Shown: in pieces, positions 6,173 to 41,200 of the stretch
How positions within the stretch are numbered: the stretch's first letter is position 1
Layout: each line of letters starts with the position of its first letter
DNA from: a virus
Length of the DNA stretch: 64,000 nucleotides
Virus record (IMG/VR): IMGVR_UViG_3300046777_001606
Span: 1 to 64,000 of that record
Direction: 5' to 3' (one strand)
Program-made: the position numbers and the translations under genes
The notes under the pieces: model-generated
What the model was told of the DNA's origin: nothing
Database searches by the model: none
What the model saw: only the letters and a program-made list of their open reading frames with translations

Positions 6173-6835
6173 ATGACCTCTGACCCTTATAATGCTAATT
6201 TTGATTACAAAGATTATTCTCTTGAAAAACTCCAAGAGTGGGTTCACGATGCGATGAATAGTGATGCTTCACCACACGAAATCTACTCTGCGATTCGTGA
6301 AGCAGTTCGTGAAGACTATTATTACCATAAAGATTGTATTAGTCGTGCTTCTGGACTTCTGGAACTGTTGAGTGGTCATCGTCCTGCAAAAGATAAAGAA
6401 CTTTTTGAAGCAGCACTTGCAGAGAGGGAATATTATGAGGGAGTAAAGGATGATGGTATGCGTCCTTGGGGACATAGCGATTTAGAATATCAAATTGCGA
6501 ATCAAAAAGATGAGAAATTTGATTACACCGCAACTGGTGAAAAGTTTCCTATTGTTTGCGATAAAGATGATTCTTCACCAGAATGTAAAGAGGCTTGGAA
6601 CGATTTTTGGGAAGAAAACTATTATCCTGAAGAGTATAAAAAAAATAAAGTAAAAAGATGGGTTCTTCCTGTTAATGTTGATGGTTTGACTGGAGATTGT
6701 TTTGTTAATTTCCCCGATGATCTTCTGGAAGCAGCAAATCTGAAAGAAGGTGATGAAGTTGAGTGGGTGGATCAATGTGATGGTTCTTGTTTAATCAAGA
6801 AAGTAACACAACCTCTTGGAATGGATGAGTGCTGA
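6173..6835 (+). CDS. Protein with AbrB-like C-terminal domain (220 aa)
   Basis: Residues 1-110 are helical and charged. The C-terminal ~50 residues have the swapped-hairpin AbrB/MazE pattern: beta strand, an 'FP.DLL..A.L.EGD.VEW' segment, then a closing strand. AbrB-like domains bind DNA as dimers or act as antitoxins. No cognate toxin is adjacent, so transcriptional or structural DNA binding is the better inference. The next gene starts at a TGATG overlap. Confidence 0.8.
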   Translation: MTSDPYNANFDYKDYSLEKLQEWVHDAMNSDASPHEIYSAIREAVREDYYYHKDCISRASGLLELLSGHRPAKDKELFEAALAEREYYEGVKDDGMRPWGHSDLEYQIANQKDEKFDYTATGEKFPIVCDKDDSSPECKEAWNDFWEENYYPEEYKKNKVKRWVLPVNVDGLTGDCFVNFPDDLLEAANLKEGDEVEWVDQCDGSCLIKKVTQPLGMDEC

Positions 6836-16651: not shown

Positions 16652-16823
16652 AGCACTTGGAGAAAAAGCCTCCAAATGTGATAGAGAATCCGATCGTATT
16701 GCAGTCATTCGATCTGTTATTTTCATTACCTATTTGATCACAAATCTGTTTATTGTTGCAGGAGTCATTCGCCATTGGAATAGTAATCAACCACAAATGA
16801 ATCATGAGTACAGAAGTTTATAA
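16614..16823 (+). CDS. Conserved single-span membrane protein (69 aa)
   Basis: The very basic N-terminus (Lys-Lys-Lys-Lys) precedes an amphipathic part and a hydrophobic segment at residues ~31-50, then a short tail. It resembles a conserved cyanophage membrane peptide from memory. It overlaps both neighbours, including 20 nt of the downstream oxygenase gene. Confidence 0.8.
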   Translation: MKKKKTVWRLWAKALGEKASKCDRESDRIAVIRSVIFITYLITNLFIVAGVIRHWNSNQPQMNHEYRSL

Positions 16824-17394
16824 TTTATTTCCATCCAGAGTTGTTTTTCATGATTGTGAATTGTTTGAGGACTATCAATCCAAGCTGATTGATTATTGCT
16901 ATGAACAACAACGTAAAGAAGACGATGATCGTTATACAATTAGAGGTAATGCATGGCAATATGTAGACTCTGATTTTCCCTTTTCGGATTTTTTGAATTT
17001 GAATATTCAGCAATCTCTGCAACACTATGGTTTTGATACGAATCAAATCACATCCATAAGTAGGAAGATGGTTGTTCTGAATATCGGATCTCCTCAAAGT
17101 TATCATATCGCACACACTCATGGTGAATGTACTCTTTCTGGAGTCTTATGGGTTAGCATACCTGAAAACTCTGGGAAATTCATCTTTCATAATGATCAAA
17201 CATATGAACAATGCGATTTGTTTAATTATCTCAGTGCTGATACCAAAGACTTAAACTTCATTGCCCCATCTTATCACTATCAACCAAAAGAAGGACGGAT
17301 GGTGATCTTTCCGCCTAATCTTAGACATTCTGTTGGATCAAATGAATCGACAAAAGATAGAATTAGTATCACATTCAATCTTAAAATCTCATGA
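16804..17394 (+). CDS. 2OG-Fe(II) oxygenase, HxH type, copy 1 of tandem pair (196 aa)
   Basis: His104-x-His106 iron ligands lie before 'LSGVLWV', distal His175 in 'FPPNLRHSVG' and Arg186 in 'RISITFN', matching the PF13759-like layout. It is expected to hydroxylate an unknown small molecule, protein or base using 2-oxoglutarate and O2. The next gene is a paralogue with matching N-terminal and C-terminal signatures, so the pair arose by tandem duplication and diverged. Confidence 0.87.
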   Translation: MSTEVYNLFPSRVVFHDCELFEDYQSKLIDYCYEQQRKEDDDRYTIRGNAWQYVDSDFPFSDFLNLNIQQSLQHYGFDTNQITSISRKMVVLNIGSPQSYHIAHTHGECTLSGVLWVSIPENSGKFIFHNDQTYEQCDLFNYLSADTKDLNFIAPSYHYQPKEGRMVIFPPNLRHSVGSNESTKDRISITFNLKIS

Positions 17395-17987
17395 ACCATT
17401 ATCTGTTTCCACAAACAATAGCTTCTCATGATTGTGATATGTTTCATGCATATGAACGACGATTGATTCGTTATTGTTATGAACTTCATCAATCTGATAC
17501 TGGTAAAGAATATACAGTACCAAGAAATGGATGGCAATCTCATAATTTAGATCTAAGAGAAGATTTTAATCAATTTCAATTTTTCTTAAATTGGAATGTT
17601 CGCAAGTGTATGGTCAAGTATGGATTTGATATGAGTCTAATACCTGATCATAAGTATGAGATTATTGTGATGAATCTTGGTTATCCTGGTAGTTATCATA
17701 ATTACCATGTTCATCCTGGTGCTCATCTTTCTGGTGTCTTATGGATTCATGTTCCTGAGAACTCTGGTAATATAACATTTAGAAATAAAGAGGCATTTTC
17801 TCAGGCTTGTATTATCAATCGTTTATCACTTAAGGAGATGGAAGATCATAATATTATGCTTGCTTATGATTATAAACCAAAACAAGGGCAAATGATTCTC
17901 TTTCCACCCAATCTTGGACATGATGTATCTACTAATGATTCTAACTTAGATCGTATTTCATTAGTGTTTAATATTCGTTTTGAATGA
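17391..17987 (+). CDS. 2OG-Fe(II) oxygenase, HxH type, copy 2 of tandem pair (198 aa)
   Basis: His106-x-His108, 'LSGVLWIHVPENSG', His177 in 'FPPNLGHDVS' and Arg188 repeat the layout of the preceding gene, including 'YCYE' near the N-terminus and the 'YKPKQGQM' strand. All predicted iron and co-substrate ligands are present in both copies, so both should be active. ATGA overlap with copy 1. It is the last gene before the long non-coding region. Confidence 0.87.
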   Translation: MNHYLFPQTIASHDCDMFHAYERRLIRYCYELHQSDTGKEYTVPRNGWQSHNLDLREDFNQFQFFLNWNVRKCMVKYGFDMSLIPDHKYEIIVMNLGYPGSYHNYHVHPGAHLSGVLWIHVPENSGNITFRNKEAFSQACIINRLSLKEMEDHNIMLAYDYKPKQGQMILFPPNLGHDVSTNDSNLDRISLVFNIRFE

Positions 17988-18250
17988 TTTAATGATTAAT
18001 TTTATATTAAAAATGTATTAAAAAATATATGTGAGTGTTTTATCTCTGTTTATGTTTGTATGCTTATTAAGTCTTTATGCGTATACAAGCATAGAAGAAT
18101 AGAAGCATAAATGTGCTGGGGATGATGATTTAGAGTCTTATAAATGTGCTGGGTTCTTGTGATCTTAGCGTGCAAGCTACCATAAGACCGAAAAAAAGTC
18201 AAGCGCCCCGAAAAAATATCAGAATCCCCACACATAAAACTCAGAGGGAC
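17988..18250. other. Gene-free segment upstream of the promoter at 18251
   Basis: No convincing gene on either strand. The first ~70 bp are very AT-rich. Then come the 14-bp direct repeat (see 18106-18153) and two purine-rich CCGAAAAAA-like tracts near 18188 and 18208. TATGCTT (18059-18065) can pair with AAGCATA (18087-18093). Nothing resembles a tRNA. Confidence 0.5.
18106..18153 (+). repeat. 14-bp direct repeat pair (ATAAATGTGCTGGG)
   Basis: Copies end at 18120 and 18153, 33 bp apart. Each begins with an ATAAAT that resembles a phage late-promoter core, so the pair could be tandem late start sites or a protein-binding repeat. Confidence 0.6.
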
Positions 18251-18279
18251 TTGACGTTTTTGCACCGATGCCTTATAGT
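18251..18279 (+). promoter_or_regulatory. Strong early promoter (TTGACG-17-TATAGT)
   Basis: TTGACG at 18251-18256, exactly 17 bp, TATAGT at 18274-18279. One of the best sigma70-type matches in the window, yet no gene starts within the next 390 bp. Confidence 0.8.
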
Positions 18280-18285
18280 ATATGA

Positions 18286-18346
18286 GTGGTGGGTCACCTA
18301 TAAGATCTCGTCGAGACTCTGCAACACTTCGAGATCTTATACTTTT
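18286..18346 (+). ncRNA. Putative small RNA with 12-bp hairpin
   Basis: Transcription from 18251-18279 would start near 18286. TATAAGATCTCG (18299-18310) pairs perfectly with 18330-18341, enclosing a 19-nt loop, and CTTTT (18342-18346) follows. This could be a ~60-nt RNA ended at its own hairpin, or a leader hairpin of a longer transcript covering the CTAG array. The T run is short and the stem's outer end is AT-rich, so termination may be partial. Confidence 0.5.
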
Positions 18347-18349
18347 CAA

Positions 18350-18639
18350 CTAGATTCACATCACACATCTAGATCAACTAGATTCACATCATTCATCATA
18401 CAACTAGATTCAACTAGATTCTCATAATCACAACTAGACATCATCATATCATCATATAACACATCTAGATTCAACTAGATTCTCATAACTAGATTGCGCG
18501 TCATTATGAGCATTTCACAACTAGATGTGTACATTTCATCGAGATTCGCATATATACTCATAACATCATCTAGATACACATCGAGACCTTATGTGCCACT
18601 AGATCATGTGTCTATGAACACTTGACCGTGCATCTAGAT
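18350..18639 (+). repeat. Array of CTAGAT(T) motifs, non-coding
   Basis: Thirteen CTAG tetramers occur in ~290 bp, mostly as (A)ACTAGATTCA or TCTAGAT, with start spacings of 19, 9, 26, 10, 20, 31, 10, 14, 32, 49, 29 and 35 bp from the first site. CGAGAT/CGAGAC variants near 18540 and 18582 fill part of the larger gaps. Motifs are separated by CATCAT/CACA-rich, G-poor filler on the + strand. No translatable gene is credible here. Confidence 0.75.
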
Positions 18640-18650
18640 TCATGTATACT
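18622..18650 (+). promoter_or_regulatory. Strong early promoter (TTGACC-17-TATACT)
   Basis: TTGACC at 18622-18627, 17 bp, TATACT at 18645-18650, 25 nt before the ATG at 18676. The last CTAGATT of the array lies in the spacer, so a protein bound to the array could control it. Confidence 0.82.
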
Positions 18651-18675
18651 ATACACAGTTACTCAAACGAAACTC

Positions 18676-18837
18676 ATGGTTTACGCGCAGAAGAACAAGT
18701 ATCGTATTACGCTCGAGCTCGATGTACTTGAAGACTTCAATCCACGCGATATCGATTGGGATAAACTCTTTGATCTAGGTGGTGATGAGCGGGTTAATGC
18801 TTATATCGAGGACCTGAACACTGATAGACTTTGGTGA
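18676..18837 (+). CDS. Small acidic hypothetical protein (53 aa)
   Basis: ATG 18676 is the first start after a strong promoter; an in-frame TTG at 18622 is in the -35 and is rejected. A basic N-terminal strand is followed by an acidic region (many Asp). Expression early in infection is implied by the promoter. Possibly connected to the adjacent CTAG array, but there is no DNA-binding motif. Confidence 0.75.
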   Translation: MVYAQKNKYRITLELDVLEDFNPRDIDWDKLFDLGGDERVNAYIEDLNTDRLW

Positions 18838-21155: not shown

Positions 21156-21908
21156 ATGACTTACAAAACTGACGGTTCTGTTCACCATGGTGGTGTGAAG
21201 AATGAGGACCTCACGGTTCGTATTCTGAATGAGAAAAAGATTTACTCTCACCCTGTAGAGAAGCGTGGTGGCACTAAAGTGAAAGAAGATGCCGTCGCTG
21301 GTTATCAACGTATCAGCATCAAGCGCAAGGAAGGTATCACTAACGGTTCCTTCGATTGGTTCAACACCAGCAGCTACAATGATGTGCTGGGTGATACTTT
21401 TACCCACTTTCTTTCTAACATGAAAGAGTTGCGGCAGATGCCTCAATCGCTGCGCTCTGATGAAGATTTTGTCCTGAAGATTCGGGATAGTTTCAATGCT
21501 CTCTGTGAGTTGGCGTTGGATAGTCTTACCTCCGATCAGGTTGTTGAGATCCTGAAGCGTGGTCTGATTGATGCTAACTCTGGTTTTGATGTTGTGATCA
21601 ACGACACCAAGACTTCGGAGATTTATGTGTTCTCTGCGGACCAACATCCTGCTCACGATTACATCGCCAAGGGTTACACTGCTATTCTCAAAGGCAATGG
21701 TAAATCGTCCCGTATGATCTACTTTGTAGATGCTGCTGGGAATGTGTATGATTGTGGTCTGCGTTTGCGGGTGACCAGCAACAACGGCATCAACGCTTTC
21801 CTGGGCACCAGTAAAGCAAACTCCAACAGTCAAGTTGTCATCAAACTGCAGCAGGATAAAGTGAAGCAACTCCTGCAGCAGATCGGCACCGAGGCGACCA
21901 GTTACTGA
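21156..21908 (+). CDS. Possible PD-(D/E)XK-like nuclease-fold protein (250 aa)
   Basis: I chose ATG 21156, after the promoter, over a TTG that lies in the -35. An N-terminal helix with 'HHGGVKNED' (Glu17), then Asp45 in 'KEDAV' and the strand 'ISIKRK' with Lys56, resembles the E...D...xK layout of restriction-endonuclease-like folds, though the usual acidic residue two before Lys is Ser54. The rest (helical middle, C-terminal beta part with a Lys/Gln-rich helix) is not recognised. It follows the ligase-like gene but has its own promoter. Function is an inference. Confidence 0.5.
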   Translation: MTYKTDGSVHHGGVKNEDLTVRILNEKKIYSHPVEKRGGTKVKEDAVAGYQRISIKRKEGITNGSFDWFNTSSYNDVLGDTFTHFLSNMKELRQMPQSLRSDEDFVLKIRDSFNALCELALDSLTSDQVVEILKRGLIDANSGFDVVINDTKTSEIYVFSADQHPAHDYIAKGYTAILKGNGKSSRMIYFVDAAGNVYDCGLRLRVTSNNGINAFLGTSKANSNSQVVIKLQQDKVKQLLQQIGTEATSY

Positions 21909-21919
21909 ACTGGCACACA

Positions 21920-21939
21920 GGGGGGCGACACTGCCCCCT
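21920..21939 (+). terminator. GC hairpin after the 21156 gene (no T run)
   Basis: GGGGGC (21921-21926) pairs with GCCCCC (21933-21938) around a six-base loop. It follows TGGCACA (21911-21917). No T run, so termination may be weak or factor dependent. Confidence 0.6.
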
Positions 21940-21954
21940 CCGACCCCTTATACT
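21925..21954 (+). promoter_or_regulatory. Promoter in hairpin (GCGACA-18-TATACT)
   Basis: GCGACA in the hairpin stem/loop (21925-21930) is 18 bp from TATACT (21949-21954), 23 nt before the ATG at 21977. Same layout as 9277 and 20108. The leader contains a CAGTTCAA block shared with other leaders in this region. Confidence 0.55.
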
Positions 21955-21976
21955 GACATCAGTTCAAAGGAACCCC

Positions 21977-22228
21977 ATGAAAGTCCAGCAAGTCGGCAGC
22001 AACCAAACCGAGGTGACCCTGGCTGACGGGACCTGCGTCCTGTTCTCCTATCAGACTCCCGTTGCCGCGATCGTCCCTGGCAAAGGATGGATGCGGACCG
22101 CTTACAAGTGGAGCGCCACCACCACCAAGCATGTCAACGCTTGGATCCGTAAGAATCGCGGCTCCTATGTGATCGATGAGGTCGCCAGTGTGCCACAGTG
22201 GGATCTGGACCAACTGGTGGCATTCTGA
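21977..22228 (+). CDS. Conserved hypothetical protein (83 aa)
   Basis: A beta-rich 83-residue protein: 'TEVTLADGTCVLFSYQTPVAA' followed by a basic 'KWSATTTKHVNAWIRKN' helix and a short C-terminus. I recall the pattern from other phages (a small family of unknown function). Rising GC content begins here. Own promoter upstream. Confidence 0.78.
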   Translation: MKVQQVGSNQTEVTLADGTCVLFSYQTPVAAIVPGKGWMRTAYKWSATTTKHVNAWIRKNRGSYVIDEVASVPQWDLDQLVAF

Positions 22229-22241
22229 CCTCCTGACCCTT

Positions 22242-22247
22242 TACAAT
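22242..22247 (+). promoter_or_regulatory. Possible -10 box (TACAAT)
   Basis: TACAAT, 21 nt before the ATG at 22269, followed by the CTCAGTTCAA leader block that recurs near 22770 and 23747. No clear -35. Confidence 0.4.
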
Positions 22248-22268
22248 ACTCTCAGTTCAATCGACACC

Positions 22269-22517
22269 ATGCTGAACTTCCTCCTGGATCACCTGCCCGT
22301 CTTCCTTAACGTAGACTGCCAGGGCAGCTCCGCTTGTGATGCCATCATCCTGTCGCCCCTGACCCGTACCGCGATCGTTAAGTGGCAGTCGGGCAGTGTG
22401 AGCGGGCATCCCTGCCGCCGCCGTGACATGCTGCCCCTGCTGTTCAACCGCGACCTGAGCCGTGGACAGTGGGCAAACCGCACCCTCCTGCAGGATCATC
22501 GGACGGTGACCCTGTAA
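22269..22517 (+). CDS. Small protein, possibly KTSC-domain-like (82 aa)
   Basis: ATG 22269 follows the CAGTTCAA leader. The order of a beta strand, 'SPLTRTAIVKWQSGS', a basic region, then a helix with 'SRGQWANRTLL' vaguely matches small KTSC-like domains (a strand-rich domain ending in an S.G.(F/W)(N).. helix). The match is weak. GC-rich codons set it apart from upstream genes. Confidence 0.6.
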   Translation: MLNFLLDHLPVFLNVDCQGSSACDAIILSPLTRTAIVKWQSGSVSGHPCRRRDMLPLLFNRDLSRGQWANRTLLQDHRTVTL

Positions 22518-22544
22518 AATTATTCCATACCAAACGAACCGACC

Positions 22545-22721
22545 ATGACCTACGCTCAGATCACTGCCTCCGAACTCTCTGCCTCTGAGGCACGTTGTGC
22601 CATCTTTGACCTGGCAGACGACTTCTCCTGGGAGACCGTCGCCCGTGAGATGATCGCCCGCATGAGTGGCGATGAGGCACGGGAGTTTGTGGACGACTTC
22701 ATCCGCCTCTATGCCGATTGA
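22545..22721 (+). CDS. Small acidic helical protein (58 aa)
   Basis: ATG 22545 follows an ACGAACC leader also seen before other genes here. Two amphipathic acidic helices (residues 8-30 and 33-57). GC-rich codons. Terminated by the hairpin at 22735. Family unknown. Confidence 0.7.
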   Translation: MTYAQITASELSASEARCAIFDLADDFSWETVAREMIARMSGDEAREFVDDFIRLYAD

Positions 22722-22734
22722 GGCACTGGCACAA

Positions 22735-22769
22735 GGGGGGCTCTGACCCCCCACCCCTGGCTCTATACT
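22735..22769 (+). promoter_or_regulatory. GC hairpin with promoter (CTGACC-15-TATACT)
   Basis: GGGGGG (22735-22740) pairs with CCCCCC (22747-22752); CTGACC overlaps its loop; TATACT is at 22764-22769. The 15-bp spacing is short, so the -35 is doubtful. Preceded by TGGCACA (22727-22733) and followed by the CAGTTCAAACAACGAACCC leader. Confidence 0.5.
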
Positions 22770-22793
22770 GATCTCAGTTCAAACAACGAACCC

Positions 22794-22970
22794 ATGCGCT
22801 ACAACCCCGCCACCGACCGCGCCATCTCCATCGATGAGATCGCTGAGCAGTGCCGCCGCGCTATTATGAAAGCCCACACCCCTGTGGAGGCTGCTATCGC
22901 TGCCCAACCGATCTACGATGAGGTTCTGACCTTCTCCCGTTGGGAGGATGATATGCTGGTGGCTGCCTGA
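22794..22970 (+). CDS. Small hypothetical protein (58 aa)
   Basis: ATG 22794 directly follows the CGAACCC leader. A helical Ala-rich sequence with one Cys. No motif. The TGATG junction couples it to the next gene. Confidence 0.7.
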   Translation: MRYNPATDRAISIDEIAEQCRRAIMKAHTPVEAAIAAQPIYDEVLTFSRWEDDMLVAA

Positions 22971-23143
22971 TGCTCGCCATTCAACCCGCCAGCTGGGGCA
23001 ACCTTGACGAATGGGGTTGCCTCTGGGCTGAGACGATGGAGGAAGCCAAACGCGCTGCCCAATCCCTCCGCGAACCTGCTATGATATGGAAGGTTGGCGC
23101 CGCTGCTGCCTTCCCCCTGACCCTTCACCTTCCGATCCGATGA
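22970..23143 (+). CDS. Small hypothetical protein (57 aa)
   Basis: ATG 22970 overlaps the previous TGA; stop overlaps the next ATG. Trp-rich N-terminus, an Ala/Glu/Arg helix, then a Pro/Leu tail. GC-rich codons. Function unknown. Confidence 0.65.
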   Translation: MLAIQPASWGNLDEWGCLWAETMEEAKRAAQSLREPAMIWKVGAAAAFPLTLHLPIR

Positions 23144-23280
23144 TCCGCTACGAAGTCCGTTACCAGGTCCCCTACAATGCCTGTGAGTGGCGCTCGCAAT
23201 GGTTCCCCACCTTGGCTGAAGCCGAGCGCATGATTGCCTTCTATCGCAGCTGTGGGTCGCCTGCTCACTTGGCTGCCTGA
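23140..23280 (+). CDS. Small hypothetical protein (46 aa)
   Basis: ATG 23140 overlaps the preceding stop; a longer in-frame form upstream lies inside the previous gene and is rejected. A beta strand with Arg/Tyr followed by an Ala-rich helix, ending in Ala-Ala. Function unknown. Confidence 0.65.
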   Translation: MIRYEVRYQVPYNACEWRSQWFPTLAEAERMIAFYRSCGSPAHLAA

Positions 23281-23286
23281 TACAAT
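23281..23286 (+). promoter_or_regulatory. Possible -10 box (TACAAT)
   Basis: TACAAT preceded by TG (TGATACAAT), an extended -10, 57 nt before the ATG at 23343. Overlaps the stop of the previous gene. No -35 seen. Confidence 0.35.
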
Positions 23287-23342
23287 GGGAACGGGTGCGC
23301 CCTTAAAGACGCCCACCAAACCACACTGATACAAACGAACTC

Positions 23343-23486
23343 ATGACCAGCAACCTTGCCGTTTCCCTGCTCCGCCGTGGGCGCAATGGGGATGAGATCC
23401 TGCAGATCCTGGAGACGATCGCCAACGATGAGGCAGACGCAAACATCGCTGATGCCGCTGCCCACTTCGAAGCGATCCAATTCTGA
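23343..23486 (+). CDS. Small helical protein (47 aa)
   Basis: ATG 23343 follows an ACAAACGAACTC leader like those at other genes here. Arg/Leu N-terminus, then an Asp/Ala-rich helix. Followed 12 nt later by the UUCG hairpin terminator. Confidence 0.68.
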   Translation: MTSNLAVSLLRRGRNGDEILQILETIANDEADANIADAAAHFEAIQF

Positions 23487-23498
23487 ATCTGACCACTG

Positions 23499-23523
23499 CC
23501 CCCCACGGTTCGCCGCTGGGGGG
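23499..23523 (+). terminator. GC-rich hairpin with UUCG tetraloop
   Basis: CCCCCCA (23499-23505) pairs with TGGGGGG (23517-23523) and inner CGG with CCG, closing TTCG (23509-23512), with one bulged C at 23516. Very stable. No T run after it. A TATACT follows 4 bases later. Confidence 0.7.
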
Positions 23524-23526
23524 TCT

Positions 23527-23532
23527 TATACT
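23527..23532 (+). promoter_or_regulatory. -10 box (TATACT) after hairpin
   Basis: TATACT 4 nt after the hairpin at 23523 and 24 nt before the ATG at 23556. No -35 found at 17 bp. Confidence 0.45.
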
Positions 23533-23555
23533 ATGGGGACACAAGCAAACGACCC

Positions 23556-23723
23556 ATGACCCGCTACGACGTGATCTGCCCCTCCGCTCCCTGGGAGAAC
23601 ACCACCACCGATGAGGACCGTGCCTGGGACCTCTGCTACTCCCTGTCCGAGGAGTACGGTTACGCCCAGGTCCGCCACAATGAGACGGGCATCATCATCG
23701 GGGAGTACACCAACGGGCAGTGA
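23556..23723 (+). CDS. Small acidic hypothetical protein (55 aa)
   Basis: ATG 23556 is preceded by an AAACGACCC leader. Mixed alpha/beta acidic peptide with a central 'DRAWDLCYSLSEEYGYAQVR' helix-turn. GC-rich codons. Function unknown. Confidence 0.7.
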   Translation: MTRYDVICPSAPWENTTTDEDRAWDLCYSLSEEYGYAQVRHNETGIIIGEYTNGQ

Positions 23724-23740
23724 GCCCCCCCGATCCGTGC

Positions 23741-23746
23741 TACAAT
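23741..23746 (+). promoter_or_regulatory. Possible -10 box (TACAAT)
   Basis: TACAAT with upstream TGC (extended -10 type), 24 nt before the ATG at 23770; the leader again has CTCAGTTCA. No clear -35. Confidence 0.4.
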
Positions 23747-23769
23747 TCTCTCAGTTCACCACCCGACCG

Positions 23770-23946
23770 ATGCGCCTCTCCCCCGCTACCCGCCTCACCG
23801 ATCGCCAGATGATCTGGGTGGCATACCGCAACGACGGCACCAACTTCAACCGCCTGACCCCTCCCTGGGGGACGACTGCTAGCATGTGGGCGGCACAGTT
23901 CGCTGAGCTCCATGCCGATGATGTGAAGGAGCCCACCTTCGGGTGA
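23770..23946 (+). CDS. Small hypothetical protein (58 aa)
   Basis: I chose ATG 23770 after the leader over an upstream in-frame start inside the previous gene. Helical Trp-containing peptide ending 'EPTFG'. GC-rich codons. No motif recognised. Confidence 0.7.
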   Translation: MRLSPATRLTDRQMIWVAYRNDGTNFNRLTPPWGTTASMWAAQFAELHADDVKEPTFG

Positions 23947-23958
23947 CCCTTCACCTGC

Positions 23959-23964
23959 TACAAT
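23959..23964 (+). promoter_or_regulatory. Possible -10 box (TACAAT)
   Basis: TACAAT 41 nt before the ATG at 24006, with a CTGC upstream. No -35 match. The leader contains an inverted CGTG/CACG pair near 23983-23992. Confidence 0.35.
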
Positions 23965-24005
23965 ATTCTCAACCACATCGCCCCGTGTCGATCACGGGTC
24001 ACCCC

Positions 24006-24215
24006 ATGTCCCCCATCCGCATCAAAGACGCTCGCCGCCAGCTGGACCGTTTGGATCTTGTCTGCCGTGAGGGCGGCAAGCATCGGGTTTACACCTGCCC
24101 CCGTCGCCCTGAGTTGCGCCTGACCCTACCCCATCGCGGCTCAGGTTCGCGTCCTACCCTGTCGATCGGCATGACCCACACCTTCCATAAGTTTGTGGAG
24201 GCAGTCGCTGCCTGA
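24006..24215 (+). CDS. Small basic protein, HicA-like outline (69 aa)
   Basis: ATG 24006. A helix ('DARRQLDRLDL'), 'GGKHRVYTC', a strand 'LRLTLPHRG', then 'THTFHKFVEA' resembles the short HicA dsRBD-like fold, where a helix is followed by a Gly-x-His and two strands. No HicB-like antitoxin is adjacent, so a working toxin-antitoxin pair is unlikely. It could equally be a generic small RNA-binding protein. Last gene of the GC-rich block. Confidence 0.6.
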   Translation: MSPIRIKDARRQLDRLDLVCREGGKHRVYTCPRRPELRLTLPHRGSGSRPTLSIGMTHTFHKFVEAVAA

Positions 24216-24254
24216 TTCGTTCGTGACCCTCTGAGGGCACAGAGGGCAGTTAAT

Positions 24255-29281: not shown

Positions 29282-32200
29282 ATGAGAGATACAAGAGTAA
29301 AAATTAGTTCTATCGTAGAAAATCAACTTCCCGCATATGTTAGGGAAGAGTTCCCACTAGTTAATGATCTATTATCTCAATATTACATATCTTTAGAGTC
29401 TCAAACCTTACCTGCAGATATCTTACAAAATATTGATCAATACGTTAAACTTGATAATATATCATCATTGGTTGAATCGACTAATTTAATCGACACTGTA
29501 GAATTATATGATGATACAATAACTGTTAATTCTAATGCCGGATTTCCAGAGGAATATGGATTAATAAAAATTGATAATGAAATCATCACTTATACTGGAA
29601 AAGAACAAAATAGTCTTACCGATACTTGCACAATTTCAATAGGATCATCTATAGCATATTTGTCGGGTATCAGCACATTATATACGGGACGACCTTTTGT
29701 TCTTAATTCTTTAAGTGCTTCTCCAACAATTACTTCTGTTGGGTCAACTTTTGTCATCTTATCAAGTATTGTAGTAGATTCTGAAAATACTTCCGGATAC
29801 ACCACGACAAATAATTATACATTCAAAATTGATAGACCACAATTTACAGGATGTGTAAGAGGATTTAGTGGAATAACCTCATATATTAGTAATAGTGCTA
29901 TATCTGATCTAGTTTTTACATCAACTAATGCAGATTCTCATGTCAATGGATCTCAAGTTGATAATTTAAGTATTCTTCTTTTTAAACAATTTCTAAAAAA
30001 AGTCAAAGCTCAAGCTTCACCGGGATTTGAAAATAGAGATTTTGATGCAGACTTAAATGAAAATATTTTTATAAAGCAATCAAAAGACTTTTATTCATCT
30101 AAAGGAACTGATCCTTCTTTTAAAATACTATTTAATGTATTGTATGGAGAAGATGCAAAAATTATAAAACCCAGAGACTATGTAATTGAACCATCAAATG
30201 CACAGTATAGAATAACAAGAGATATAGTTGTTGAACCAATAGAAGGATCTATTGATAATATTGTTAACAGAACAATCTTTCAGGACTCGTCCACTATTTC
30301 AGAGCAAGCAAGAGCAAGTGTTAATGGTGTAGAGAAGTTTTTAAGAAACGGAAAAGAATATTATATTGTAAGTTTAGATAAAGATTCTATATTTGGTTCT
30401 TTTGTTATTAATCCTAAAACAAAAGTAGTAACTAATGTATCTATTGGTGCAACTCATATTGATGTTGATACAACTGCTGGATTTCCAGAGACAGGCGGAA
30501 GTTTACTTATAGAACTTACTGATGGAACAACTTTTTATATTACATATGAATCTAAAACATTAACCCAGTTTTTTGGATGTTCTGGCATTGATCGAGTTAT
30601 TCCAGACACTTCAAATATAATTTTTGAAAATTTTGCTTATTCCTATTCTGATATCGAAAGACAAAACAAAATTCAATTTAGAATAACTGGAGTTTTATCA
30701 GATCTAATAGTTCCGCAGGAAACAGATTCATTTGTTAAAGATGATGTTGTTTTTGCAAAGACTTTGGGAACAGAAATTGAAGGATTAAAAGCAAATAATT
30801 GGTTTTTTAATCTATCAACTACGTATAATGTTCAATCTGTTTCTCTTGTCGGTTTAAGTCCATTTATATACAATCTTACTTTATATGACAACCATATTTT
30901 TAGATTGGGTGATGCTATTGAGGTCTACGGATCAGATGGAACAGAAATATCTGGAGAAGTAAGTTCACTTATAAGCGAAAGAGCAATTAGTGTACTCGTT
31001 CAGGGACAATTAAGCACTTCATCAACTATAAGATATAGGATCAAGAGAAGTCTATCAAGAGTAAATGCTGTTGGATATCCCGAGTTAACTGCATACACTG
31101 CAAACGTTCAAAATGTATATTCTGATTTAAAAGGAAATTACTTTGTTGCATCACCTTCACTTCCGTCTTATGGAAGCCAAACTATAACAATTAGAGATTT
31201 AGTTAAAACTTGGTCATCTGATTTTTATGGAACTTCTGTAGAAATTGGTCAACACGGTTTTTATACTGGAGATGCTGTTTATTATACTCCAGGAATTGGT
31301 GCAGATACTGAAGCAGGAATATATTTCATTCAAAAAAATAGCCCAACATCAATTAGTTTAGCAAAAAGTAGACAAAATCTTTTTAGTGGCAAATTAGTTA
31401 CTTTATTTGGAGTTGCTTCTGCAGAAAATAAAATTGAATTACTTGAGTTTGCGGGGCAAAAATTAGAACCTCAAAAACTAATTAGAAAATTTTCTGATCC
31501 AGAGTATGTTACGGGAGATGATTATAAAACTGCGGCAGGAATGATCGGAATGCTTGTGAATGGTGTAGAAATTTTAAATTATAAGTCCAGAGATGTAATA
31601 TACTTTGGTCCCCTAGAAAAAATATATCCATTATCTCCAGGAAGAGGATATGATGTTATTAATCCACCAAATCTAAGAATCAATGATGTAACTGGATATG
31701 GAGCTACAGCGTTCCCCGCAGTAACAGGAAGTCTTGAGAGGATAGATATTTTAGATTCTGGATTCGATTATACTGATATTCCAAAAATTTCAATAACTGG
31801 TGGAAATGGAAATTCTGCAATTGCAGAATGTAATATGATTTCTTTTGAACATGATGTACCATTTTACCCAACATCTGGTGCAGCACCTTTACAAGTAGAT
31901 CTTTCTAATAATACAGTTGCGTTCACGACATATCATAAATTTAGATCTGGAGAAGAAATAATCTATTTGACTGGTGGAGATGTTGCAGTTGGTGGTTTGT
32001 CTACTAATGCCTCGTACTATGTTTCATTAGTTAATGCATATGCAGTAAAATTTCATAAGAGTTTTGAAGATGCTAACGCAGGAATTAATACAATTTCATT
32101 AACTTCTTATGGAACTGGATCTCATAGAGTTAAATCCAAATTCAAAAAGAAAAAAATTGGAAGTATAAGTGTTAAAGATTCTGGATTTGGATATGAAAAT

Positions 32201-35200
32201 AAAAAGATTATCGTAAATTCCTCAGGTATTAGTACTTTTAAAAATACATTATATGCGGAAAATCATGGATATTCGACTGGAGAATTAGTCAGATATTTTT
32301 CAACAGATTCTACAGTAATTGGTGGATTATCAACATCAACTTCATATTATGTGACTGTAGTTGATGATAATAATTTTAAATTATCTCAGGTTGGTTCTGG
32401 ACAAACCACAATTGATTTTTACCAAAAAACAAATCAATTTATAGATCTAACAGACACTGGAACGGGAAATCATATATTTAATTATCCACCTATAGAAGTT
32501 TCAATTAAAGGAACTATTGGAGTAACAACTTTCTCTGGACAAAACTTTGAGGCAGTAATTAATCCAGTCTTTAGGGGAGAAATAAAATCTGTATTTGTTC
32601 AGAATAAAGGTATTTCGTATGGATCCCAAAGTATTATCAATGATAACCGACAACCAGAATTTATTTTAGATTCTGGTTCGGGAGCTGAAGTTCTACCTGT
32701 TATATTAAACGGAGCAATAATCAATGTTATTATTAGATCACCAGGGTCAAATTATAATTCTCCACCAAACTTAGTTGTAACTGGTAAAGGAACTGGTGCG
32801 ATTTTAAGCCCAATACTCATTGATGGTAAATTAAAAGGAGTTTATGTTGTATATGGTGGATATGGATACGAAAATGGGTCAACTTTTATCAATGTTACTC
32901 CATCAGGAACAGGATGTGAACTGGAAGCACAAATAAAAACATGGACTATTAATAAAGTACAAAGAAATATTACAACCAATCAAATTAGTGATGATGATGG
33001 ATTTATTGATAATGGAACCAATACTGACTATGGTCTCCAATATAGTCATGCATATGCACCAAGAACTTTAAGAAGACGTATTCTTTCTTCCAAAATCCAA
33101 AATGGTCAGTATGTTTTTTCACCAGATTTACAATTATCATCTGGTATTGAAATAGCATCATCTTCACACTCGCCAATTATTGGATACGCTTATGATGGAA
33201 ATCCAATATATGGTCCATATGGATATGATACTCCAGAGGGTGGAACAATTAGATCAATGATATCTAGTTATGAGCAATCTCTAAGTATTGAAAGACCAGA
33301 TACCAATTTATATCCTGCGGGGTTCTTTATTGAAGATTTTGTTTATACTGGTTCGGGTGATTTAGATGAACATAATGGAAGATATTGCGTAACTCCAGAA
33401 TATCCAAATGGTGTTTATGCTTATTTTGCAACTATATTTAATGGATCGCCAGATGGTTCTGGAATATTTGTAAGATACAAGAGACCTGTATTCCCATATT
33501 TTATTGGAGATTCTTATAAGTCAAAGCCAATTGATTTTAACTTTGATTATAGATCAAACCAAGATTTAACAGATATTAATGCTACAGGATGGGTACGAAA
33601 TACAACACCATATGGACTTTTAAAGTCAAAAACATCTTATGAATATGTAATTAACCCAACTAAAATAAAACAGCAGAAGACATACATCCAAGGTACTTCA
33701 AGAGGATCTGTAGATAGTATCGGTATTCTTACTGCTGGAAATTTATATCAGGTTAATGATAAAATTGTATTTGATCCCACCGTTCAGTCCAATATCAAAG
33801 CATCCGCAAAGGTATCTAAAGTTAAAGGTTCTTTTGTAACAACAGTTAGTTTAGCATCGTCGGTAACTAACGCGGAATTTATTTTATATAACTCAGGAAC
33901 AAATCTCATTGGTTTTACATCTTCACCTCATGGATTTTCTAACAATGATATTGTTAATGTTGTTATAAACGACAAAGAACAAAAAACTGGAAATATTAAA
34001 ACATCAACAAATAATCTGTACTTAACTGCAGGAGTTCCTATTCCTAGTGTAACAGGAGCAGTAACTTATTTCAAAGTAACTGGTAATTTAAATTATCCAA
34101 ACATAAAAGAAAATGATATTTACATTATCAATAATAAAGAACAAGTAAAAGTTTTAGAAATAGATGCAAAATCTTCTAGAATTAAAGTTCTGAGAAATAT
34201 TACTTCAGCTGGTGGTATAACATCATATTCATCTTCTCAAAGATTGATTGAAAAAACAAGAAGACTTCAAATTGATTTGGGAATTTCAACTACTTATCAG
34301 TATAATTTAAATAAAGAAATTTATTTTAACCCCAGAGAAGCACTGGGAATCGGAACAACATCCGGAGTAGGGATTACAACTACATTGCAATTTAGTGACC
34401 CTGGTGTTGGAATTGCTAGTATTACAATACCAACAAGAGCAATCTATCTTCCAAATCATGGATTGGAGACAAATACTGAACTAATTTATTCCGCTAATAG
34501 TGGAACTCCAATTTCAATATCTACAAATGGATCTGTTTCCTATCAAATTCCAGATAACTCAATAGTTTACTGTGCAAAATTTTCCAACGATTTGATCGGA
34601 ATTTCTACAACAAAATTGGGTATTGGTAGTACGGGGTCTTTTGTTGGGTTAGGATCAGAAGTTTCATATTTGATGTATTTTATTGCTACAGGTGTTGGAA
34701 ACACTCATAGCTTTAAAACTAATTATCCTAATGTATTAAAAGGAAAAATTACAAGAAATGTTGTTACAGTATCAACAGCATCTTCGCACGGATTGAGTAT
34801 AGACGATAAAATTGATTTAACTTGTATTGCAGGAATAACCACAAACGTTAAGATTGTATATAATGATTTTAATAGAAGACTTTTAGTAAATCCAAGAAAT
34901 TTTGTTGCATCTGATATTGACGTACAAAACGATATTATCACAATTCCAAACCATCAATATACGATGGGACAAAAAATTATTCACACATCAACTTCGCCAG
35001 CTAGTGGACTGTCAAATAATAAAATTTATTATGCAATTGTAGTTGATAAAGATAGAATAAAGTTGGCAGATACTTATTATGACTCTACAAATAAAATTCC
35101 AGCAACTGTAGGAATTGCTTCAACTTCTTTTGGAACAATTGCTGCTGTTAACCCACCAATAAAAATTGCAAGAAATCAAAATATTGTATTTGATGTTTCA

Positions 35201-38200
35201 GATTCTTCGTTATCTTTCATTAAAGATAATTTACAGTATTCTGCATTTGATCTGAATTTTTACGAAGACAGTAATTTTAGAAATCCATATCTTAAGAGTC
35301 CATCATCTGCAACTTTTGATGTTATAAAATCTGGAAATATTGGTATTGACTCTACGGCAAAAGTAACTCTTAATATTAAGCAAGATACTCCACAAAATCT
35401 TTATTATCAGTTAGAAGTAGTCAATAAAAATATTAATACTCAGATTAAAAAGGACTTATTTATTGATAACGAACTTGTTAATAATAACAATACATTAATT
35501 TTAGTTGATAGTAAGTATAATGGAACTCATACTGTAAGTGGAGTAACGTCAACTGCATTCACATTTAATATCGCAGAAACTCCAGAAGTTGGAAGTTATT
35601 CTTATATACAATCTAATTTATCGTACATTACGTCATCAGAAACTGCCTTTGGATCTATTGAAAAGATAACTATTTTAGATAGTGGATTTGGTTATGAAAT
35701 CGTTCCTAAAGTTTCTGAAATTATTTCGGATTATGGATTCGGGGCTCTTTTATATCCAAAGAGCGAGACAATAGGAAATATTAAAACTTCTAAAATTGCA
35801 GATATTGGATTTGATTATTCTGCAGATCTAACAATTAGACCATCTAGTAAGTTTCCAGATCTAATTAAAATTTCTCCATTAACTTCGTTTGAATCAATCG
35901 GAGTTACTACATCTGGTAGAAGATATTCAACGGTTCCAGATTTAATTGTTTTAGATGGATATACTGGAGAACTTGTAGATGATGTTGAATTATCATATGA
36001 TATTCGTAATAAAAAAGTCGAAATTATTACAAATACAAAATCTCTTTATAATGTTGAGCCTAGAATTATACCTATTAATAATTCTAATGGTGTTGGTATC
36101 AGTTCCGTATTTTTTGATACATCTTCAAAAGATGTAATTGTAACCTTGGGTTCTAGTTTCAGCAATGCCGCAGATTTCCCATTTGATATAGGCAGTAAAG
36201 TATTTGTTGAGGGTATTAGTGTTGGTGTAAATTCAACCGGTAAAGGATATAATTCTGATGGATATCAATATCAACTTTTTACAGTTACAAATACTGATCC
36301 AAATATTGGAGGAGCGGATCCTACTGTAACATACAACCTTACCGAATTCTTAGGGGTCGGAGAATTACCCGGAAGATATGATAGGGTTAATTCTGTAGGT
36401 AGAATTATACCAGAATTCCAATTAGCTAAATTTAATTCTGTTCTTGTTGATCCAAAAGAAATTGTTTATTTTGTTGGTGAAGAAATTTCTTCCACAGACA
36501 ATACAGGAATTGTAAACTCTATTGATACTAGGACTGATTTAATTAAGGTAACTTCAGGTGGAAATTTCTATATTGGAGATTTGCTTGAAGGTAAAACATC
36601 TGGAACTTTGGGTTATATTATTGATATTAAAAAATTTGAATCGAATTATGATGTTTTCCCAACAAGTTTAGTTAGAAAAGGTTGGAAAAAAGAAACTGGA
36701 ACTTTAAATAACTCATTCCAAAGAATCCATGATAGTGATTATCATCAGTATTTTTCGTATTCAGTAAAATCTCCAATTCCATACGATACTTGGAATGACG
36801 CGGTTAGCGCATTAAATCATACATCAGGATTTAAAAAGTTTAGTGATTTGATTATTGAAACAAATAACTTTGTGGGAATTGATACCAATCAAGATAATGC
36901 AACATTTGTTAGAATTGACTTTATTTCCGAAATGGACTTGAATTGTGTGACGGATTTTGATCTAGCTACAGAAAATAGTCTTCTTGTTAAAAATAAATAT
37001 GTTTCCAATGAAATAAGACCAATATCAAGAATTTTACTTGATTATCAACAGTCAATTAATAACAGAGTTTTAACAATTGATGATATTGGACCACAATTTA
37101 ATTCTGCAGAAAGATTTAATAAGTACACTATAATTGATAGCTTTGATTTATTTACTAATAATACATATAGAGCTAGAAAATACCTTGCATTTATAAGAGA
37201 TAAGAGATTTGTAAACGATAGGGAAGTTTTATTAATTTCTACACTTCATAATTCATTTGAAGGATATGTAACACAATATGGAAGAACAGAAACATCTTAT
37301 GATTTAGGATTTTTTGATTTTCTTGTTTTTGGTACGGTTGGTAATCTTGCATTTTATCCAAGAAAGTTTGCAGTTAATGATTTTGATGTTAATTTACTAA
37401 CCTATGATCTAAGAGACTCATTTGCTGGAATAGCGAGTACAAGTGTTGGAACAATTGCTAATATTAACTCTTCAACTGTTCAAATTGCATCTGGGGTTTC
37501 CACTGCGACTACTATTGTTAGTATTGCATCATCCTATAGATCTGCAAAACTTATTGTAGAGATTTCGGGAATTAATCCAGGAATTTCAAGTACGACTCCA
37601 TATTATTTCAGCGAAATAAGTTTACTTCATGATGGAACAAATGTTTATCAAAGTGAATACGGTAATTTGAGTAATGAACCATTCACTGCATCAGTTGGAG
37701 TTGGAATTTGTACTTTTAATGCATATCTTAGCGGATCTGATATCAAACTAGATTTAATACCAAATGCCGGGTTATCTACAACTATTAACGTTAATACTCT
37801 AGCTGTTTCAATAGGAAATAGCGCATTTACTGGTGTTGGAACTTTTGTCGTAGCAACATCAGAGATTAGTTCAAAATACACTTCAATTGCATCATCAACA
37901 TCACCAATTCAAAATAGCGTAGCTTCTTATTCGTATGATGCATATAGTGGTGGATATTTCATCTTTAGTATTGAAGATACAACAAATAACTCTTATGAGA
38001 TGTGTGAAGTTGTTGTGTGTAATGATAATACAGAAGCATATATTAATGACTTTGGAAATGTCCAATCAAGTGTTGGTCTTGGAACTTTTGGAGTAGGATT
38101 TAGTACATCACTTATAAACGTTTACTTTACTCCAAATCCAAATATTAACGTTCAAGTAAGAGCATATCAAAACGCTTTAGGGAATTATGACGATCAATAC

Positions 38201-41200
38201 CCAACGGAAATTGGATTTACAAATTCATCAATTACTGCAGATTCTGGTGTTTATGTTGGAACAAAACGAGATATTCAAAGAACTTTTAATTTAACTTATA
38301 AAAATAATGATATTTTCCAAAGAGCATTTAGTGGAGAAAGTTCTACAGTTGTTGATCTTACAAAAGATCAAATAAGACTTCCAAATCATTATTTTGTTAC
38401 TGGAGAAGAAGTTACTTATGTTCCTAGAGGAAAAGGAACTGTTGCTCCAATTGGAATTGCAACCACATCAATTCCTGGAATCGGGACTACCGACAAGTTA
38501 CCTTCAACTCTTTACATTGTTAAAGTTGATGAGTTAAACGTTAAAGTTGCAACATCAGCTAGCAATGCACTTAAGACAACTCCAGAGGTTCTTGATTTAA
38601 CTTCAGTTGGAATCGGAACCTCTCATATATTCATATGCAAAAATCAAAATGCTAGGGTTTTAATATCAATTGATAATGTTATTCAATCGCCAATTGTAGC
38701 AGCTGCCATTACTGCTTCATTATCTCAAAGAATAACTCCCGTCGATAATGTTATACAGGTTGTTTCTGGAATTTCATCTTATGCATCTGGAGAATTATTA
38801 AAGATTGATGATGAAATTATGTTGATTGAATCTCTTGGATTTGGTGCAACAAACGCAATACTTGTCCAAAGACCTTGGTTAGGAACTGTTCTTGCTACAC
38901 ACGAAGCAAATTCAGTAATTACTAAAATAACTGGAGATTATAATATTACAAATAATGCTATTAACTTTGTTGATGCTCCATATGGTCTAACACCACTTTC
39001 ATCAACAACCAATATAGCTCCAGAAAGAGATTGGATTGGTATCTCCACAAGATCTTCTTTTAATGGAAGATCTTTCATGAGATCTGGATTTCCAAATGGA
39101 ACTAACACTCCATATGCATTAAATTATGTTTTTGATAACATTTCAGATCAATTTAATGGGTTCTCAACATCATTTATTCTGAAAAATAACAAACAAAATA
39201 TTGCTGGTATTCAAACTAGCAACGCAATAATTCTACTTAAAGACGTATTTCAAGGACCAAATAGGATTGGTGGAGGAACAGTTGATGTAGTTTCAAATTA
39301 TGCGTTAACAGAAAATTCTGGAATTACAACAATAATTTTTAACGCCAGCGCATCACCAACAACTTATGATATTAATAACTCTAACATTCCAGTAGGTGGT
39401 GTTATTATATCTTTGGGATCATCAAGTATTGGGTGGAATGATTATCAAGCTCCTATGGGAGCTGGTGGTACAGCAATTGTCTCTGCTGCAGGAACTATTT
39501 CTGCGGTTCGCATCAATAATGCTGGTGGTGGATACAGAACTGGAATTCAAACCTTTGTTAGGGTTGGCGTTAGAACAAATGCCGAAGCAGGAAAGATTAC
39601 TTATGTTGGATTTGCATCAATTTCGGGAGGAAGAGTTCTTGGTGTAGCAATTACTAATGGTGGTGTTGGATTTGCATCAACCAATCCACCACAAGTAGTT
39701 ATAGAAAAACCTGTTCCCTATTCTAATATTCCATTAATATATTCATCTTCCAATCCTGGTGGTGCAGCGGCTGGAGTTGGAACAGGCGCTAAGATTGATC
39801 TTTATATAAGTCAAGAGGGAGAAGCAAAAGATTGGACTCTCATCAATCTTGGATATGGTTATAAACCTGGGGAAATATTAACTGTAGGTTTAGATACCAG
39901 TGGAGTTTTTGGAATTCCTAAAGAATATCTTGGGCGTTTTGCAGATGGTGGAAATCTTCTTTCTAAGAATAGAGCTTTTGTTCAGGAAGAAGTTGTAGCA
40001 TATGTGGAATTTAACTTCCCAGGAATTTCAACAAGTCCGACTTATGATCGTGCAAAATGTAAGAGAGATGTTGGTTATATTGTTGATGCAATTACATTTG
40101 ACTTAGCTTTTGGTGGAAATTCAGAATCAATTAGCGCAGGATTAGCATATTGGAATGCGGGTGCATCTTATGTTGCAAATGAAAGAGCAGAAACTATTTT
40201 TGCATATGATTATGTTAAGTTCATTGGTCAATATATTATCAACAACCAATCTCCACCAACACTTTATCAATTCCCAATTGTAGAGAATCAGGTTTTTGAT
40301 TTTACATTAATTCAAGATTATGAAAATAATAATGCAAATTATTTTCATAGAAGAAAAGATGCAAGAAATCTTATTGTTGGAAATAGACAGGAAATTATAG
40401 ATAGATCTCTTGCTGCAGTCGCAGTTGGATATACCAATTTCTACTTCCCAGGAGAAGCACAGACTACTCCAAGATCAAGATATTATGATGCACACAGATT
40501 AATTCAACTTAATAAGCAAGAAGTTATTGATAGATCTCTTGCATCCGTAGCAATTGGATATTCTGATTTCTACTTCCCAGGAGATGCTCAAACAACAAAT
40601 AGATCAAGATACTATGATGCATATAGATTAATTCAAAATAATAGATCTGAAATTGTTGGTAGCGCATGGACAGCAGTTTCTACTGCATATCCTGGAGTTA
40701 CAACAACGGCATCAAAATGCCAACGAGATCTTGGATATTTTGTTGATGCAGTTTCTACTGACGTATTTACTGGTGGTAACAATTATGCTAGAGAATTTAC
40801 ATTGCAATATTTTAGCAATGGAAGTTTGATTCCAAATGGAGTTCTTGGCGTTCAAACCGAATCCATTTTTGCTTTCCATTCTGCTCGTGATTTCATGAGA
40901 TTGGCTGTAAGAAATCAATTAACTTACACGGATCTCGGTATTAGTTCTGGTCCTCCAACATATGGAATTGGATCAACCGTTGGAATTGCTAGCACTGCAG
41001 CTTGTTATGATGTACAGTTGAACATTATCAGTTTGACTGGTATTGTTACAACTGTTCTCGGAGCTGCCTCGACAGCAAGCTTACCTGCTAGAAATCTTGG
41101 TAATTTCAATGTTACAGTTGGAGTTGGTAGTACAGTTGGATTTGGATCAACTTCATCTCCTGGCGGTCTTAAGTGTGCCCGAGATCTTGGATATTTTGTT

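Follow-up and report, generated by a model that had tools for sequence, protein, structure and literature searches.

The 64,000-nucleotide stretch analysed here (the window) belongs to a cyanophage record of 107,801 bp, from a virus of freshwater cyanobacteria with T4-like genes. In it, a gene-free region holds a dense run of CTAG tetramers, which raises the question of what this run is for. The initial annotation described it as a CTAG-rich array between two near-consensus promoters in the only long gene-free stretch, and these observations held. No two plausible genes of the window are further apart than those flanking 17988-18675, both promoters are present by sequence, and we counted 13 CTAG tetramers in 288 bp where about one is expected. 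Dinucleotide-shuffled versions of the array contained a mean of 0.97 and a maximum of 5 (5000 shuffles), and the densest other 290-bp stretch in the window contained no more than 3. Since CTAG is depleted over the whole 64 kb (110 versus 155 expected), the concern that it might be equally frequent elsewhere does not apply. The + strand of the array is G-poor, as had been noted (11% G). No tRNA was found in the window. The features discussed below are collected in Table 1.

Table 1. Features of the control region and related genes, in window coordinates.
Feature	Position	Strand	Description or evidence
Candidate regulator of 220 aa, AbrB/MazE-like domain at the C-terminus	6173..6835	+	PF04014, E 7e-4, below the curated Pfam cut-off
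Two 2OG-Fe(II) oxygenase genes	16804-17394, 17391-17987	+	Pfam PF13759, PHROG 81; upstream of the control region
Leftward sigma-70-type promoter, TTGACT-N17-TAGCTT	18174..18202	-	Sequence; TTGACA-N17-TATAAT-like in relatives
Upstream rightward promoter, TTGACG-N17-TATAGT	18251..18279	+	Sequence
Inverted repeat, TATAAGATCTCG / CGAGATCTTATA	18299-18310 / 18330-18341		Sequence, fold, palindrome scan
Array	18350..18637	+	13 CTAGA and, at 18540 and 18582, CGAG variants; G-poor CAT/CACA filler
Rightward promoter of the PHROG 12516 gene, TTGACC-N17-TATACT	18622..18650	+	Sequence
Promoter-embedded copy, CTAGATTC	18634..18641	+	Register TTGACN-N6-CTAGATTC-N3-TANNNT
53-aa acidic early protein, PHROG 12516	18676..18837	+	E 1.1e-21; first in a run of small genes

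The leftward promoter is followed by a conserved initial transcript, GCWCGCTWAGATCAC. Together with its first ~20 transcribed bases (GCWCGCTWAGATCACWA; 18141-18202, - strand), this promoter is kept in about 30 of 73 relatives, and the isolates S-8S55, S-PRM1 and S-CAM9 likewise have a match to the upstream element. The conserved start faces away from the operon and may mark a small RNA or an operator; its sequence GCTAAGATCACA agrees with the array motif CTAGATTCACA at 8 of 11 bases, which by a rough count is not significant. Further along the window, a 2.5-kb segment (21750-24250) stands out by its 54-63% GC, against 35-40% for the genome, and by its negative GC skew. It encodes a HicA-like small protein at 24006-24215 and has the look of recently acquired DNA or of a chimeric join. 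The structural block contains very large open frames, 29282-43783 (4833 aa) and 45364-53007 (2547 aa), which are shared with the 215-kb genome G001 at 44-54% identity.

All 13 CTAG copies read CTAGA on the + strand; 12 continue as CTAGAT and 8 as CTAGATT, in agreement with the original description of mostly CTAGAT(T). What the initial annotation had missed was that the motif is wider than CTAG, that it keeps a single strict orientation, and that it is conserved elsewhere. Alignment of 163 sites gave the consensus CA(A/T)-CTAGAT-T-C-(A/G)-C-A, an oriented motif C(T/G)AGATTC inside CAW-CTAGATTC-RCA, and eleven arrays together held 156 forward versus 8 reverse-only sites. CGAG-type copies occur within the array itself, CGAGATTC at 18540 and CGAGAC at 18582. 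In locus L159 CGAGATTC alternates with CTAGATTC, in L231 it is used throughout the array, and one aligned site reads CTAGATTC in L159 and CGAGATTC in L185. Judged from these substitutions, CGAGATTC is an equivalent of CTAGATTC, and since it can replace the CTAG form, to the point of filling the whole L231 array, the earlier emphasis on CTAG as such was misplaced.

The copies had also been described as lying at steps of about 10, 20 or 30 bp, which is only roughly so, the actual steps being 19, 9, 26, 10, 20, 31, 10, 14, 32, 49, 29 and 35 bp. A claim of helical phasing was dropped, as phasing at 10.5 bp is weak (R, p ~0.04) and longer periods fit equally well. Copy number and spacing shift fast among relatives. 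Between close relatives, 1 of 226 motif columns is mismatched versus 68 of 1006 filler columns (Fisher p 1.7e-5; p 0.003 under the reciprocal definition). Dyad forms of the motif, among them ATCTCG-A-CGAGAT and AATCTAG-T-CTAGATT, were found in other phages, and the inverted repeat next to the array contains the half-site CGAGAT together with ATCTCG-T-CGAGAC, a partial dyad (at 18305).

The last CTAG does lie within the spacer of the 18622 promoter, as first proposed, and its register is identical in 11 distinct arrays, TTGACA-N6-C(T/G)AGATTC-N3-TATAAT, such that the site overlaps the core promoter. The form TTGACA-N6-CTAGATTC-N3-TATACT, or one near it, was found in the window and at nine further loci (L008, L009, L011, L012, L014, L015, L033, L159 and L191), and CGAGATTC takes the same register in L231, upstream of PHROG 12516, and in L132, ahead of another gene. 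Since the remaining spacer bases vary among the promoters that share this register, the position of the copy appears to be under constraint and to be read as DNA together with RNA polymerase. Two arrays (L013 and L022) are exceptions, with no register copy in the nearest promoter.

Scanning IMG/VR for exact matches to the pattern gave 29 loci, and most of the dense ones carry 7-18 CTAGA copies in one orientation directly upstream of PHROG 12516 homologues. Dense oriented arrays at this place occur in at least ten divergent T4-like cyanophages; these lineages are well separated, as their PHROG 12516 proteins span 45-92% pairwise identity to that of the window. In a gene-based search all seven closest relatives (at least 76% identity) had the array, whereas those further removed, most of them marine, keep the gene and promoter, often with the leftward promoter, but lack the CTAG array. 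A wider scan added L132, L154, L159/L185/L203, L187, L191/L217, L201 and L231 with related motifs. Many matches of this second scan were set aside as coding Ser/Leu/Asp-rich repeats (CTA GAT TCA codons), as was L029, a 12-bp repeat whose coding status is unproven. Related phages thus keep the array in the same genomic position, and two further objections raised at the outset, unrelated filler in relatives and an assembly error, do not hold.

Within individual genomes the sites are largely confined to the early region. In G000, all 7 forward sites lie there, and no + strand copy of the 8-mer CTAGATTC falls outside the array, while the other strand has one copy. In G001, 11 of 12 sites are in the early region, and all 11 forward copies fall in three clusters within a 5-kb stretch. 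A second array of G001 immediately precedes an ATG and has no promoter of its own, the third cluster is inside an open frame, and some copies are far from promoters, in transcribed or coding stretches (114.5 and 115.7 kb). Two isolates, S-SRM01 from a reservoir in Singapore and DSL-LC03 from Dishui Lake, concentrate CTCGACGAG and AATCTAGTT sites, respectively, in this same early region upstream of gp25/gp6; their clusters have the same or a related form and lie upstream of early genes, with some S-SRM01 copies again far from promoters in transcribed or coding stretches. As a separate observation, the motif runs into a small acidic open frame (MYDDYDxxYTY...AYRHYA) in S-SRM01 (L256 ~30640-30780), L187 and L154, where ATCTCGACGAG or GATCTAGAT encodes DLDE or DLD, a possible repeat-born gene. 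Similarly, CTAGATTCAATCGAGAATCTAAAAACCCAA repeats in an open frame at L235 4924-5000 (G001 ~115.7 kb) would encode coiled-coil-like LDSIENLKTQ repeats.

Other array types occupy the same place. A second group of phages (L062, L071, L083, L091, L095, L109 and L112) carries TTCGT motifs, 5-11 forward versus 0-1 reverse, with a long unit, TTCGTGATTAGATAA, every 69-72 bp in unrelated filler. The regular spacing of these units is striking; written as TTCATTCGTGATTAGATAA-n-TTCGTAT, they number 2-5 per phage, 200-500 bp upstream of the PHROG 12516 gene. Kanaloavirus isolates have 5-9 CCTGCG copies there, for which the evidence is weaker. The PHROG 12516 control region seems prone to lineage-specific arrays.

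We consider that the array is probably a multi-site operator for a phage-encoded DNA-binding protein that would control the early operon, most likely as a repressor. Arrays ahead of the same gene, the fixed register, the single orientation, confinement to the early region and conservation of the motif above filler all count towards this reading; what the sequences themselves show is that place, orientation, motif and promoter register are conserved. Positions 18250-18675 would then be the control region of the early operon headed by the PHROG 12516 gene, and C(T/G)AGATTC the half-site of the putative phage protein. Bound at the spacer copy, whose position and register between the -35 and -10 are observed, this protein would compete with host RNA polymerase, while the 12-20 upstream copies may gather it beside the promoter to make a steep switch, or buffer it until it is abundant. 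Host polymerase would transcribe the operon early, and repression would follow as the regulator accumulates. Since the -35 and -10 boxes and their 17-bp spacing remain close to consensus, we infer that repression is appreciably more likely than activation. Operator and regulator would be expected to co-evolve, in line with the differences in motif and array between lineages. Counting against an operator are the exceptions L013 and L022, the copies far from promoters, the weak phasing, and a strict single orientation, which dimeric proteins that bind a dyad seldom require.

Among known systems, the array can be compared with repressor operators within the -35/-10 spacer and with tandem operator arrays such as MetJ boxes and omega-repressor heptads. 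It resembles these systems in having many short sites with one over the core promoter, and differs from them in its ~15 sites, wide irregular spacing and one strict orientation.

The main rival to an operator, and a serious one, is a replication origin of the iteron type, comparable to T4 oriE, in which an initiator would bind the direct repeats, an early transcript would prime replication, and the promoter copy would autoregulate as in iteron plasmids. Oriented direct repeats beside divergent early promoters and an AT-rich block are compatible with this, as is the combination of direct repeats with two inverted half-sites close to the upstream promoter (18299-18341). T4 oriE, in a T4-like phage, likewise has clustered 12-nt direct repeats, themselves of no proven role, with an early promoter and syntenic conservation in relatives (PMC3016281). 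The array differs from oriE in that its spacing is irregular (9-49 bp) rather than even, a promoter spacer holds one copy at a fixed position, and further copies recur at other early loci. The extra clusters that G001, S-SRM01 and DSL-LC03 carry at several early loci fit a regulon better, array-less marine relatives replicate, and the GC skew of G001, a genome with nearly all genes in one direction, has no switch at the array. We regard an origin as considerably less likely than an operator. The partition and packaging readings that had also been suggested are unsupported.

The initial annotation further proposed that the array is the body of an unusual repeat RNA. Here the array would act as an unstructured, G-poor leader or sponge whose repeated CUAGAUUC binds a protein or small RNA; the G-poor + strand, transcription possible from the upstream promoter, and the promoterless G001 array just before an ATG would all suit such a role. 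However, this is improbable because the most constrained copy sits in a promoter spacer, upstream of that promoter's transcript. The sites of L022 also keep one orientation on either side of the leftward promoter, the swap of CUAG to CGAG is tolerated, and a search of Rfam gave no match.

The initial proposal that the array binds a protein, of the phage or of its host, stands for the phage, a phage protein being the best-supported reading. That the phage has borrowed the sites of a host transcription factor might be suspected from the fact that the clearest arrays occur in freshwater-type phages, including the two lake and reservoir isolates. Yet among 300 host-family genomes the promoter form and the array pattern were each matched in only one, no more than the reversed-pattern control. 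The site-binding factor is for this reason probably a phage protein, and a host factor very unlikely. Eleven matches in the genome collection were single loose ones, and two read at the sequence level (L121 and L127) were ascribed to chance. Neutral repeat expansion or an assembly artefact, suggested by the rapid change of copy number and spacing between relatives, can be dismissed, as many independent assemblies and complete isolate genomes share the gene, orientation and register, with the motif conserved above filler.

If the array is an operator for a phage protein, a candidate for that protein is the AbrB-like product of 6173-6835. Its AbrB/MazE-like domain is annotated as such in the S-SRM01 (QPX48095.1) and DSL-LC03 homologues, and a protein of this two-part (N- and C-terminal) build is present in five near-complete array genomes (G000, G001, G306, S-SRM01 and DSL-LC03) and in none of 12 isolates without arrays, a count that is not a clean test because the genomes are related. 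An array phage (G002) lacks the gene and has a different one in the syntenic slot, which also counts against the operator reading and leaves the AbrB-like protein a candidate only, and a doubtful one. Compared with AbrB-type regulons, the likeness lies in the AbrB/MazE-domain protein of most array phages tested; the array motif is unlike AbrB sites, G002 lacks the gene, and the regulator is only a candidate. A winged-helix protein near the G001 arrays was rejected, being present in G001 alone.

The T4 MotA-box middle promoters offer a further comparison, as they too place a short phage-specific motif at a fixed position in a phage promoter. In those promoters the motif lies near -30 and replaces the -35, whereas here the -35 TTGACA is intact and the motif is mid-spacer, which sets the array apart from MotA boxes. 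T4-like cyanophages have no T4-like middle promoters and lack motA and/or asiA (PMC5780444). Tentatively, the orientation-locked, lineage-specific arrays before the PHROG 12516 operon, C(T/G)AGATTC here, ATCTCGACGAG in S-SRM01 and TTCGTGATTAGATAA at ~70-bp steps in a third group, could form a class of control region not described before. A rapidly evolving phage protein would read them and stand in for the absent MotA/AsiA system as early-gene switch, and the arrays might double as a replication origin.

We found no description of such an array in the literature. With its binding protein and activity putative, it is best filed under multi-site operator or iteron arrays rather than as a new category. 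The modelled fold of PHROG 12516 (pLDDT 84) had no PDB match; this conserved early protein would be placed in a regulatory context. With motif, promoter and candidate protein all defined, a phage-specific operator array lends itself directly to testing, and two phages carrying the sites, S-SRM01 and DSL-LC03, have already been isolated on hosts.
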